Positions 42,610 through 51,318 of a DNA stretch of 64,000 nucleotides are shown here, piece after piece (positions within the stretch are counted from its first letter, which is position 1; the number at the start of each line of letters is the position of its first letter). Source of the stretch: Natrinema sp. CBA1119 (GTDB lineage Archaea > Halobacteriota > Halobacteria > Halobacteriales > Natrialbaceae); the NCBI RefSeq assembly GCF_002572525.1, contig NZ_PDBS01000001.1, positions 3,100,001-3,164,000 on the forward strand, given 5' to 3'. Both the position numbers and the translations under genes were made by a program. A model generated the notes under the pieces. It made no database searches and had not been told where the DNA came from. It was given only the letters and a program-made list of their open reading frames with translations.

Positions 42610-43875
42610 TCACTCCGACGACGGATTCGGCGCGGGCAGGGACCGAAGCTCCCGTGGCGGAACGAGGTAGTTCGCTCTGTTCGTGACGCTGATGTACTGG
42701 AGAATACCGCTGTTAAACATCGGGGTATCGAGATCGGTCCCGGTCATCGCTTTGCGGGTTTTCACGAAGTCCTCGATCGATTGCTGGTGCGAGAGGAAGT
42801 GGGTTGCAGCGGTCTCGTCGTCGGTCGAATCGAAGTCGCGCCGGAGGATGATCGGTTCGCCGTCTTCGCGCGCGCGAGCGGCCTTCTGGGCGTGGCCGAC
42901 AGTTCCAGTGCCGGTCGAAGCCGGGTCGCCGCCGACCTCGGTCACGCGACTCGAGTCGCCGAGATTGTGGCCGGCCCCCTCGACGAGATCCGCCGCGTTG
43001 TGGTTCGGCGAGAACATCTTGGAGACGCGCTGACCGCGGCTGTCCTGATTGTACCACTGATGCAGGTGCAACTGAATCTTCGAGAGGTGGATCGTCGTCC
43101 CGCCGGCGAACGGTCCCTCGTCGATCGTCACGCGGTCCTCGCTCGCCTGATTCTGCCTGAAGCCGGATTTGAACCCCATGAACATCGGCGCGTCCTCCGG
43201 AACGGGATCGCCGTCGGGGATGCCGTGGACGCCGGACTGATTGTCGGCCGGGAGGCCGCGGCCGATGAACCCGGTTCTGCGGTCGCGCACCTCGAAGATC
43301 CCGTCGAACGTTCCCTCGACTTCGATCCCGTTGAGTTCCTCGAGTTCACCTTTGAGAGCCTCCTCGACGCTCAGGGTGACGTGACCGTAGTCGCTGGCCA
43401 CCTGAAGCAAGGCGTCGTACTCGTCGAGTTCCGGATCGTCGAACGGCGTCAGTGACGTCGGCTCGGGCAGATCAATCCCCGCGAGGTCGGCGTCGAAGCG
43501 GTCGAAGTAGGCCGGGCCGTAGGCCATCGTGAACGCCAGTCCCTCGTTACCGCGCTTGTACGCTTTCTCGAGCGTTCGGAACGCGGCCTCGAGTCGTTCG
43601 CGTTCGGCCGTCGCGTCGGCGGGACCGTCGCCGACGTACTCGAGGCCGAGCAGGAGGTGGTGTTCGGGCGGCCGAACGTTTCCGTCGTCGTCCGTCCCGA
43701 GGAACTCGTTCCACGCGTGCTGGCGATCCGGGAGCGCATCGGGGGCGAGCGTGGCCTGGGGCACGTCCTCGGTCTCCTCGCGCTGGAGGCAGGCTGACAG
43801 CGCGCTCGCACCGCCGATGGCGACGGCGCTGCGCACGAACGCGCGACGCGAGAGTCCGCGATCCGAACCGTTCAT
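42610..43875 (-). CDS. Tat-exported DUF7405 / Dyp-peroxidase-like protein
   Basis: The 421-residue protein begins with a Tat signal ending in a lipobox: SRRAFVRSAVAIGGASALSAC (LSAC at about 26-29). It is therefore a predicted Tat lipoprotein. The body resembles haloarchaeal DUF7405 proteins and distantly Dyp-type peroxidases (GIDLPEPTSLTPFDDPELD and HFLSHQQSIEDFVKTRKAM). I could not identify a clear haem-ligand His, so peroxidase activity is uncertain. It stands alone, with an unusually long 480-bp 5' region. Confidence 0.78.
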   Translation of the reverse strand: MNGSDRGLSRRAFVRSAVAIGGASALSACLQREETEDVPQATLAPDALPDRQHAWNEFLGTDDDGNVRPPEHHLLLGLEYVGDGPADATAERERLEAAFRTLEKAYKRGNEGLAFTMAYGPAYFDRFDADLAGIDLPEPTSLTPFDDPELDEYDALLQVASDYGHVTLSVEEALKGELEELNGIEVEGTFDGIFEVRDRRTGFIGRGLPADNQSGVHGIPDGDPVPEDAPMFMGFKSGFRQNQASEDRVTIDEGPFAGGTTIHLSKIQLHLHQWYNQDSRGQRVSKMFSPNHNAADLVEGAGHNLGDSSRVTEVGGDPASTGTGTVGHAQKAARAREDGEPIILRRDFDSTDDETAATHFLSHQQSIEDFVKTRKAMTGTDLDTPMFNSGILQYISVTNRANYLVPPRELRSLPAPNPSSE

Positions 43876-47240: not shown

Positions 47241-49016
47241 TCACTCGCCGGCGGTCCAGCGAGCGTCCGCGAGCGTCCGCTGGACGACCTCGTTGCCGAC
47301 GGCCTCGGCCAGCGTCTCGAACCCAGAGCGCTCGCCCCGATCGCTCGCGTTCGCGACGAGCCGCGAGACGATGAACTCCGGCGTCGACCGGCCCACCGTG
47401 CCGAAGCGGGGCTGGTAATCGACGAGCAACTCGAGGTCGGGGTTCAGCCCCTCCGCGAAGATGCCGTCGACCCGCGCTTGCGGGGGCAGCGGCTCGAGGT
47501 CGTCCGCGAGGTGGGTGACGAAGACGCCCAGCGCCTCGCGGTCGACGGAGAGCGTGACCAGTCCGTGAAGCAGGTCCGCCGCGCTGCCCGGCTCCGTGAT
47601 CGCCTCGAACTCGTCGACCAGCATGAGGGTGCGGCCGTCCGACGAGAGCGGGGGGACGATCGACCGCAGCGTAGACTCGAGGACGCCGGCGTTGAAACTC
47701 GCGTGCCGGCGGTGGAAGACCAGCGAGTCGACGGGCGTCACCTCGGCCCGATCCGCGGGGACCGGCAGCCCCATCGTCGCCAGCAGAACGATCTGACACA
47801 GCGTCTCGAGCAGGGTCGTCTTCCCGCCGCTGTTCGCGCCCGTCAGGACGGCGACGCGCTGTTCGCCGGGGACCGCGTTCACACCGTCCGGAACGCTCGC
47901 GATCCCGTGCTCGCCGAGCCCGTAGGTGACCGGCTGGACCGACTCGTCGTCTCGCGCGGCGAGCGTGAGGTTGCGCGCGTTGACCACGGAGACGGCCGCG
48001 TCCTCGCCCGTTACGAAGACGGGGCGAGTGCAATCGTACTCGAGCGCGAAGCGGGCCAGCGAGAGGTGCAAGGCGATATCGTCGACCGCTTCGACCGCCT
48101 GATCGACGGCATCGCGGGCGTCCGCGAGCGTTTCCCGGAGCTCGCTCGCGACGGTTTCCTCCCGTTCGTCGACCGCCGCCGTGAGATCGGTCCGCAGCGT
48201 TCGCAGCGTGTCCCCGACGAAATCGGTCGCGTCCGCCGCGTCGGTCGGCATCGCGTCCCGAACCCGATCGATCGTCACGTCGGTCTCGCTCAACAGGCGG
48301 TCCTCGAAGGCCTGGCGAAAGCCCTCGACGTCGTGGACGCCCTCCGAGCGAAGGTCCTCGATCAGCGCGAGGGCGTCGGCGTCCATGTCTTCGACCGCAC
48401 CCAGCGCGTCCCGGAGACGGTCGAGTTCCTCGTCGGCATCCTCGCGGACTCGGCCGCCGTCCAAGGCCGCCAGCGCGTCGGCGGCCGCCCCGAGCCGGTC
48501 GCGCTCGAGGTCGGCAATCGCGGCGAACGGCCCCGAATCGACGCCGGCTGCGAGCAACGCGAGCGCGGCCTCGACGGCCGCGTGCTCGCTCCCGGCGCGC
48601 TCGTCGTAGCGTTCGTAGGCCGCGAGGACGGCCTTGCGGTCGTCGTCGGCGAGGCCAGCCCAGGCGTCCCGGGCTGCAAGCACGTCGTCGAGTCGGTCGT
48701 CCATCGCCGCCCGGCTATCCAGGGGTGTCAGCACCCGAATTCGGTCCGCCGCGCGCTGCGTGACGGCGTGGTCGACCGCGAGGTCCAGCAGCTCCTTGTA
48801 GGCCGACCGCGCGTCGCTGGTCGCCAGAACGTCCATTCCCGCACCACCGGTCGCTCGGCGCAAGATCCGCGTCGCTCGCCCGCGGGCGAGCCCGGCGTCG
48901 GCGAGCGCCCGTACGTCTCCGCTTTCGATCGCCTGGATCGCCCGCTCGTGACCCAGCTCCTCGATCAACGTCTCCCGCGTCTTCGGGCCGACCCCCCAGT
49001 ACTCCTCGAGTCGCAT
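47241..49016 (-). CDS. MutS-family ATPase with N-terminal helix-hairpin-helix
   Basis: ATG 49016 gives 591 residues. Residues 1-60 form a helix-hairpin-helix DNA-binding segment (MRLEEYWGVGPKTRETLIEELG...AGLARGRATRIL). A long helical core (70-320) leads to a MutS-type ABC ATPase: TGANSGGKTT at 392-401 and Walker B LMLVDEFEAIT, with LSSDGRTL before it. The mismatch-recognition domain of MutS1 is missing, so this is closer to MutS2/MutS5-like proteins. It may act in recombination or repair; that is inference. No MutL lies next to it. Confidence 0.88.
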   Translation of the reverse strand: MRLEEYWGVGPKTRETLIEELGHERAIQAIESGDVRALADAGLARGRATRILRRATGGAGMDVLATSDARSAYKELLDLAVDHAVTQRAADRIRVLTPLDSRAAMDDRLDDVLAARDAWAGLADDDRKAVLAAYERYDERAGSEHAAVEAALALLAAGVDSGPFAAIADLERDRLGAAADALAALDGGRVREDADEELDRLRDALGAVEDMDADALALIEDLRSEGVHDVEGFRQAFEDRLLSETDVTIDRVRDAMPTDAADATDFVGDTLRTLRTDLTAAVDEREETVASELRETLADARDAVDQAVEAVDDIALHLSLARFALEYDCTRPVFVTGEDAAVSVVNARNLTLAARDDESVQPVTYGLGEHGIASVPDGVNAVPGEQRVAVLTGANSGGKTTLLETLCQIVLLATMGLPVPADRAEVTPVDSLVFHRRHASFNAGVLESTLRSIVPPLSSDGRTLMLVDEFEAITEPGSAADLLHGLVTLSVDREALGVFVTHLADDLEPLPPQARVDGIFAEGLNPDLELLVDYQPRFGTVGRSTPEFIVSRLVANASDRGERSGFETLAEAVGNEVVQRTLADARWTAGE

Positions 49017-49110
49017 ACGCTGTGAACTCGAGGCAACGCTCTTGAACGCTGTGTCTCGAGCGCCGTGATACTCGACCCACAAAAATCTCACCGCGGGAGT
49101 CGTCGAGCGG

Positions 49111-49479
49111 TCACTCGTAGATTTTCCAGTCGCCGTCTTCCGTTCTGAGCTCGATCGTCATCTCGTTGGTCGTCGATTCGCCGTCCTGTTCCATCGTTAT
49201 CTCGGTCCGGACCTCGGCAATGCTGTCCGTTTCATCGACGACTTCAGTCTCCTCGACCGTCATTTCCGTGTCCTCGAGATTGGACATCTCCTCTTCCGAA
49301 ATCTCGCCGGATGGTGAGTCGGAGTGAAGAAGATCGTTGACAGTCGCTCTGTCCCCGTCGTTCGCTGCCTGATAGAACTTCTCGACCACTTCGCCTGGGC
49401 TATCGTTGAGAACGCCCATTCAGCCGGCGAGTCCGACCGTTGCCACAGCGGCCGTCCCCAGGAACTGTCGTCGTTGCAT
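49111..49479 (-). pseudogene. NTF2-like (DUF4878-type) lipoprotein gene with TGA at the lipobox cysteine
   Basis: ATG 49479 encodes MQRRQFLGTAAVATVGLAG, a Tat lipoprotein signal ending LAG. The next codon (49420-49422) is TGA instead of the expected Cys. The same frame continues ATGGGCGTT and encodes 102 residues (GEVVEKFYQAANDGDRATVNDLLHSD...ELRTEDGDWKIYE), an NTF2-like/DUF4878-type domain. The domain itself is intact. It could be a one-base nonsense mutation, a sequencing error, or reinitiation at the adjacent ATG (TGAATG) giving a cytoplasmic form. Confidence 0.8.
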
Positions 49480-49806
49480 CGGCCTATATCAGAAACCAGG
49501 ATTGTTTATCTGTTTCGGCCAACTGTATCGATCTCGCTAAAATAAATGCCACTCACTACTGGAGTTGTGTTTTGTTCGCGCCGAGAATGGGCGAACGAAC
49601 GCTCGGCGGACTGAACTGGTGCGATCCCGTCAATTCCGTCTCGAGACGCCGATAGCAACGATTCATCGAGCGCCGTCGGACGGAAAGACTACTGTCGCGC
49701 AATTTCTCGATCAATATGCACGATTGTGGATACAATTCACATTCGGAGGGAGTCGAAGAAGCACAAACACGGGGATTTTTATCGGCTCGATGCCCTACTG
49801 ACTCCC
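49480..49806. other. Divergent promoter region of the lipoprotein gene and purF
   Basis: This 327-bp region holds the AT-rich promoter of the minus-strand lipoprotein (around 49490-49550) and the TATA box of purF (49776-49783). The middle part shows no gene. Confidence 0.5.
49776..49783 (+). promoter_or_regulatory. TATA box of purF
   Basis: TTTTTATC lies about 27 bases before ATG 49807, pointing to a leaderless transcript starting there rather than at the in-frame ATG 49846. Confidence 0.5.
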
Positions 49807-51318
49807 ATGACTGATGGGCGGGGCGAAACTCCCCGGCGAACAGGAATGACCGAAAAGTGCGGCGTCGTCGGCGTCTCACTTGACGGTCGGGACGCGGCGC
49901 GACCGTTGTACTACGCGCTTTACGCACTCCAGCATCGCGGGCAAGAGTCCGCAGGAATCGTTACCCACGACGGCTTTCAGCAGCACAGCCATGTCGAGAT
50001 GGGGCTCGTGGGCGACGCGTTCGGCGAGGACGATCTCGATGCGCTCAACGGATCGGCAGGAATCGGGCACGTTCGGTATCCGACTGCCGGCTCGGTCGAC
50101 TCCTCCTGTGCACAGCCGTTCTCTGTCTCGTTCAAGAGCGGTTCGCTCGGCCTTTCGCACAACGGCAACCTCGTCAACGCCGACGAGATCCGCGACGAAC
50201 TCGCCGCCGCGGGCCACGCGTTCACCAGCGACGGCGACACCGAGGTCATCGCCCACGACCTCGCGCGCAACCTCCTCGAGGAGGACCTCGTCCGCGCCGT
50301 CAAACGGACGATGGGGCGGATCCACGGCTCGTACTCGCTGACGATCACCCACGACGACACCGTTCTCGGCGTCCGCGATCCGCAGGGGAACCGCCCGCTG
50401 TGCATCGGGGAACTCGAGGACGGCTACATTCTCGCGTCGGAGTCGGCGGCGATCGACACGTTAGACGGTGAACTCGTCCGCGACGTCCGGCCGGGTGAAC
50501 TCGTCGTCCTGCAGGAGGACGGCGACGGCTTCGACTCCTACCAACTCGTCGAACAGGAGAACACCGCCCACTGCTTCTTCGAACACGTCTACTTCGCGCG
50601 CCCCGACAGCGTCATCGACGACACGCTCGTCTACGAGGCGCGCCGCAATCTCGGCCGGAAGCTCTGGTCGGAAAGCGGCGTCGAAACCGATGTCGTGATG
50701 CCCGTCCCCGACTCCGGGCGGGCCTTTGCCTCGGGCTACGCCGACGCCGCGAGCGAGACGACTGCCGACGGCGAGCCCCGAGCCGCGGACGACGACGGCG
50801 TCGAGTTCGCCGAGGGGCTGATGAAGAATCGCTACGTCGGCCGGACGTTCATCATGCCGACCCAGGACGAGCGCGAGCGCGCGGTGCGGCTCAAGCTCAA
50901 CCCGATCAAATCCACGATCGAGGGCAAGACCGTCACCGTCATCGACGACAGCATCGTCCGCGGGACCACCTCGACACAGCTCGTCCAGCTCCTCAAGGAC
51001 TGCGGGGCCGAGGAAGTCCACGTCCGCATCGGCGCGCCGGCCATCGTCGCCCCCTGCTACATGGGCATCGACATGGCCACCCGTGAGGAGCTCATCGCAG
51101 CCGACAAATCGACCGCCGAAATCCGCGACGAGATCGACGCCGACAGTCTCGCCTACCTCTCGACCGACGCCGTCGCCGACGTGCTCGAGAAGGACCGACT
51201 CGACCTCTGTCTGGGCTGCGTGACCGGCGAGTACCCCTACGATATCGAGGGCGAGGAGACCGACCGCGACGTGAGCCGGCCCGATGTGGGCGGGACGCAG
51301 TTGCCCGCGGACGACTAG
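49807..51318 (+). CDS. purF: Amidophosphoribosyltransferase PurF
   Basis: PurF catalyses the first step of purine synthesis: PRPP plus glutamine to 5-phosphoribosylamine. ATG 49807 fits the TATA box and gives 503 residues with a 17-residue propeptide before the N-terminal nucleophile Cys18 (CGVVGVSLDG). ATG 49846 would leave a four-residue propeptide. The Ntn glutaminase domain has YALQHRGQESAG and SHNGNLVN. The PRPP loop is VTVIDDSIVRGTTST. The cluster CLGCVTGEYPYD at the end resembles the Fe-S-binding tail of Bacillus-type PurF. The length is normal. Confidence 0.96.
   Translation: MTDGRGETPRRTGMTEKCGVVGVSLDGRDAARPLYYALYALQHRGQESAGIVTHDGFQQHSHVEMGLVGDAFGEDDLDALNGSAGIGHVRYPTAGSVDSSCAQPFSVSFKSGSLGLSHNGNLVNADEIRDELAAAGHAFTSDGDTEVIAHDLARNLLEEDLVRAVKRTMGRIHGSYSLTITHDDTVLGVRDPQGNRPLCIGELEDGYILASESAAIDTLDGELVRDVRPGELVVLQEDGDGFDSYQLVEQENTAHCFFEHVYFARPDSVIDDTLVYEARRNLGRKLWSESGVETDVVMPVPDSGRAFASGYADAASETTADGEPRAADDDGVEFAEGLMKNRYVGRTFIMPTQDERERAVRLKLNPIKSTIEGKTVTVIDDSIVRGTTSTQLVQLLKDCGAEEVHVRIGAPAIVAPCYMGIDMATREELIAADKSTAEIRDEIDADSLAYLSTDAVADVLEKDRLDLCLGCVTGEYPYDIEGEETDRDVSRPDVGGTQLPADD

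Follow-up and report, generated by a model that had tools for sequence, protein, structure and literature searches.

A TGA codon at the lipobox of a Natrinema Tat lipoprotein gene, probably a recent nonsense mutation

A Tat lipoprotein signal peptide, a TGA stop codon at the lipobox position and an open frame for an NTF2-like domain follow one another in a single reading frame of the window (the whole 64,000-nucleotide stretch of DNA analysed here, G000:C1:3100001-3164000, from a 5.06-Mb genome of the GTDB genus Natrinema). This arrangement is probably the result of a recent one-base nonsense mutation in an accessory Tat lipoprotein gene, with loss of export and lipidation. A first, sequence-only reading had offered a fresh nonsense mutation, a sequencing error and a natural switch as explanations, and the nonsense mutation is the best supported of the three because the syntenic orthologues keep both the signal and the cysteine, the stop is private, and the domain has not decayed. 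As expected of a nonsense pseudogene, intact orthologues at this locus lack the in-frame stop.

Signal peptide and stop codon at the lipobox

The minus strand from 49479 to 49111 translates as MQRRQFLGTAAVATVGLAG, a stop, MGVLNDSPGEVVEKFYQAANDGDRATVNDLLHSDSPSGEISEEEMSNLEDTEMTVEETEVVDETDSIAEVRTEITMEQDGESTTNEMTIELRTEDGDWKIYE and another stop, the second frame consisting of an ATG and 101 sense codons with its terminal TGA at 49113-49111. The LAG-ending Tat signal from 49479 and the TGA at 49420-49422 described earlier were exact in both coordinates and reading. The features of the locus are listed below, with their basis.

49423-49479, minus strand: Tat lipoprotein signal peptide, codons 1-19, ending LAG (sequence; kept in orthologues)
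49420-49422, minus strand: TGA stop, codon 20, where orthologues have the lipobox cysteine (sequence and orthologue comparison)
49417-49419, minus strand: ATG, codon 21, abutting the TGA, a possible reinitiation codon (sequence)
49111-49419, minus strand: 102-codon open frame encoding an intact NTF2-like domain, MecA_N / DUF4878 / SnoaL-like (Pfam, AlphaFold, Foldseek)
49505-49520, minus strand: conserved promoter-like block GGCCGAAACAGATAAA, -41 to -26 from the first ATG (ungapped three-copy comparison)
47241-49025, minus strand: mutS-like ATPase gene (MutS domain V), downstream neighbour (in 29 of 29 genus genomes searched)
49846-51318, plus strand: purF (amidophosphoribosyltransferase), divergent upstream neighbour, longest frame from GTG 49726 (frame list, Pfam)

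The peptide of codons 1-19 has a twin-arginine motif at its N-terminus and a hydrophobic stretch, and its match to Pfam TAT_signal is weak, under the cut-off of that family. A lipobox with cysteine at +1 in one open frame is found in the orthologues, while the window gene has TGA at that codon. That a signal happens to lie before an unrelated soluble gene was ruled out, given that the orthologues hold both parts in one frame. The whole genome was surveyed with the CTNGCNGGNTGA pattern for LAG-TGA, and among the 30 sites read (of 32) a Tat signal preceded LAG-TGA at the window site alone. Intact Tat lipoproteins retrieved by a regular expression from one 400-kb sample of genome stretches were too few for a useful rate. 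Elsewhere in the window (42610-43875, minus strand), a further signal of Tat type was observed (MNGSDRGLSRRAFVRSAVAIGGASALSAC), whose lipobox-like ALSAC is intact, indicating that the organism encodes ordinary Tat-type examples.

The gene offers 42 possible single-base nonsense changes, one of which hits the lipobox codon (~2%). The position of the stop is therefore a notable coincidence of roughly 2%, spotted post hoc in a case picked for it. Against the nonsense reading, the residue hit is the most consequential one to lose, and the stop lies directly against an ATG (~1/42); the event is otherwise ordinary except for where it fell.

Orthologues and patchy distribution of the gene

Syntenic orthologues in the interval between the mutS-like gene and purF were found in 2 of the 28 other Natrinema genomes, namely N. 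versiforme (G025; L005/L032) and N. salsiterrestre (G027; L004/L031). Both read LAGC or FAGC, with a TGT cysteine codon opposite the TGA of the window, and the codons that follow the cysteine are GCT and ACC, not ATG. A 61%-identical relative from another family (G042) has TGC and then ATG at its lipobox, and all clear signal-bearing homologues that were read, from many haloarchaea, retain the lipobox cysteine. The comparison with orthologues that had been proposed as a check thus returned a cysteine codon in relatives (TGT in two, TGC in G042), and orthologues devoid of a signal peptide, which had been named as evidence against the reading, did not turn up: the orthologues carry the signal. 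Within the genus, the TGA stop context is private to the window genome. By parsimony, the window lineage would once have had the cysteine and lost it through one base change.

The remaining 26 genus genomes gave no strong match to the lipoprotein gene anywhere in the genome. The gap between the mutS-like gene and purF was readable in 21 of these 26, the purF start not being recognised at the locus in the other 5, and none of the 21 held a lipoprotein homologue there (in L042 the gap is 0 bases). A single-protein query of genome contigs gave zero matches; an alignment query recovered both Natrinema orthologues. In the nearest species (G008), alignment at ~90-92% on both sides flanks an unrelated stretch of ~440 bases that replaces window positions 49061-49693. 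The third-position GC of the lipoprotein gene is 0.71 versus 0.89 in its mutS-like neighbour, and no second intact copy of the gene exists in the whole genome. The whole-block replacement in G008 and the lower third-position GC both fit a patchy accessory gene, and one that looks dispensable because no homologue was found at the locus in the 21 genus genomes with a readable gap, G008 included, or as a strong match anywhere in the 26.

Two further observations concern the neighbourhood and the family. The likely ATG of purF is at 49846 and its frame continues upstream from there (window 49726-49845), where a KHKHGDFYRLGALLTPMTDGRGETPRRTG-like stretch recurs across several genus genomes; purF may truly start further upstream than expected, or else its leader consists of conserved DNA. 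Another genome of the same archaeal family (G088) holds at least 4 paralogues of the lipoprotein, two of which (L075 and L089; G088:C1:1204139-1204543 and 1587555-1587845) carry TAA and TGA in the mature domain with the lipobox cysteine intact. Given these interrupted paralogues, the lipoprotein family may decay often.

Mature domain, upstream element and the possibility of reinitiation

The 102-codon frame had been described as uninterrupted with an NTF2-like domain, and this was borne out. MecA_N matched at 23.7 bits (Pfam cut-off 22), with DUF4878, SnoaL_2/3 and others under the cut-off. AlphaFold, from a five-sequence alignment, predicted three helices and four strands with a mean pLDDT of 88.8, and Foldseek retrieved the RsgI9 S1C-NTF2 structure (E 2.7e-5), PBP2a/PBP5 structures and small NTF2-like proteins. 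Sequence matches and the predicted fold thus support an intact NTF2-like domain. The dN/dS between the window gene and three orthologues was about 0.24-0.32 (dN 0.28-0.35, dS 1.1-1.3), compared with 0.31-0.53 among the remaining orthologue pairs. Lineage-unique changes numbered 5 in the mature domain of the window gene and 4, 2 and 4 in the others (8 versus 5, 4 and 4 over the whole protein). The gene contains no second lesion besides the TGA, and no clear relaxation after it. Because dN/dS is low and unique changes in the domain are not in excess, inactivation, and so any decay of the gene, would be recent. However, continued use of the domain is likewise compatible with an open frame free of any second lesion, and the lack of clear relaxation and of further lesions suits a nonsense mutation of very recent date and a domain that remains in use equally well.

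When the three syntenic copies were compared without gaps over the 75 bases that precede the first ATG, a block emerged with the versions GGCCGAAACAGATAAA, GGCCGGAACAGTTAAC and GGCCGAAACGGCTAAC, in which as many as 12 of 16 positions are invariant. This level was matched in 0 of 20000 shuffles, which ignore shared ancestry, so that the score speaks for conservation relative to the flanking bases and not for function. By likeness to known haloarchaeal promoters, we infer a BRE plus TATA box. A block of this kind would put the transcript start near the first ATG, as in a leaderless haloarchaeal mRNA, with the second ATG inside the transcript.

According to the favoured nonsense reading, the TGA arose by a single-base change from the lipobox cysteine codon of a Tat lipoprotein gene that is lineage-restricted. 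Transcription would probably still begin at or near the first ATG; ribosomes would translate the 19-residue signal peptide and stop, and the lipoprotein would not be made. Ribosomes terminating at the TGA might sometimes restart at the abutting ATG and produce the 102-residue NTF2-like domain, which, lacking a signal, would remain cytosolic and begin (M)GVLNDSPGEVVEK. As far as its original, membrane-anchored role is concerned, the gene would then be a recently arisen null. A degree of reinitiation at TGAATG is plausible, because Haloferax volcanii pairs reinitiate when stop and start overlap or lie very close together: its genome holds stop-start pairs at distances 0-6, and reinitiation falls substantially at 13-14 nt and almost to zero at 22-23 nt (PMC10666635), with coupling shown for 9 of 9 pairs (PMC6728339).

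Competing explanations and known systems

An assembly or sequencing error, the organism really having a cysteine codon and an ordinary Tat lipoprotein, is unlikely, even though the case is one private base difference in one assembly with the rest of the gene intact. Nonsense pseudogenes are common among prokaryotic genomes, which counts against the need for an error, and the genes shared with G008 between 41 and 64 kb of the window show no clear interruption. One apparent interruption, when followed up, turned out to reflect an intact gene extended at its upstream end; other stops look, by eye, like shadow frames. Broad assembly decay near the site was thus not seen over this range, and with the shared genes uninterrupted the local sequence accuracy looks good. 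In our judgement, a true mutation is several times likelier than an error. Readthrough or recoding of the TGA by a selenocysteine, cysteine or suppressor tRNA to give a full-length, possibly lipidated protein is barely credible. Cysteine is one base from TGA, and in-frame stops with signs of constraint have been reported in prokaryotes (PMC7918605). However, the whole genome yielded no tRNA-Sec above the cut-off (the best matches being tRNA-Arg and tRNA-His) and no SepSecS, in a search with a positive control in Methanocaldococcus jannaschii, and no other Tat signal with LAG-TGA occurred among the 30 sites read. Moreover, changing the lipobox cysteine to serine blocked processing in tested haloarchaeal Tat lipoproteins (PMC2945643). 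Selenocysteine and other TGA recoding were rejected on these grounds, and the earlier dismissal of selenocysteine was right.

A functional switch, in which the stop has been kept and TGAATG serves for termination-reinitiation that yields a soluble, relocalised cytosolic NTF2-like protein, appears improbable. The geometry proposed for it is permissive, since a stop-start distance of 0 lies within the H. volcanii reinitiation range and the last 15 nt of the upstream gene are reported to suffice for coupling (PMC10666635), and the domain shows neither damage nor visible relaxation. By contrast, the stop is conserved in no relative, the ATG is missing in both syntenic orthologues (ACC and GCT after the cysteine), and a recent mutation accounts for the intact domain equally well. 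A Shine-Dalgarno-like motif is not obligatory in every termination-reinitiation pair. No Shine-Dalgarno-like 4-mer stands just before the second ATG (49419), although haloarchaea make ample use of such motifs for reinitiation (PMC6728339). Comparative data thus give the functional switch no backing and no sign of selection for reinitiation. Slightly less probable again is that one base change in the lipobox cysteine codon, by making the zero-distance stop-start pair, turned an exported, lipid-anchored protein into a cytosolic one, and that the supposed pseudogene continues to be translated and is maintained for its relocalised product.

As a nonsense mutation, the case has small import beyond annotation, where the 102-codon frame, a lipoprotein remnant, may be entered as a soluble protein. 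Synthesis of the reinitiation product, should it occur, would represent a one-step route for a haloarchaeal protein to switch compartment, and would provide a natural setting in which to test stop-start reinitiation that lacks a Shine-Dalgarno motif.

The window gene shares with haloarchaeal Tat lipoproteins of the LAGC type (PMC2945643) a twin-arginine signal, a hydrophobic stretch, LAG before +1 and a mature domain after it, whereas a stop codon occupies the place of the +1 cysteine required there. The N. versiforme and N. salsiterrestre orthologues match the window gene in gene position, signal, NTF2-like domain and upstream element, and differ in having TGT, no ATG after it and longer linkers. 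With NTF2-like domains such as MecA_N, DUF4878, the PBP2a N-terminal region and the RsgI9 NTF2 domain it has in common helices on a curved sheet and sequence matches, the window version being a small stand-alone domain in a lipoprotein. Finally, as in H. volcanii termination-reinitiation pairs (PMC6728339, PMC10666635), the start codon directly follows the stop, but the window pair comes from one gene, with no overlap, no Shine-Dalgarno-like motif and no conservation.
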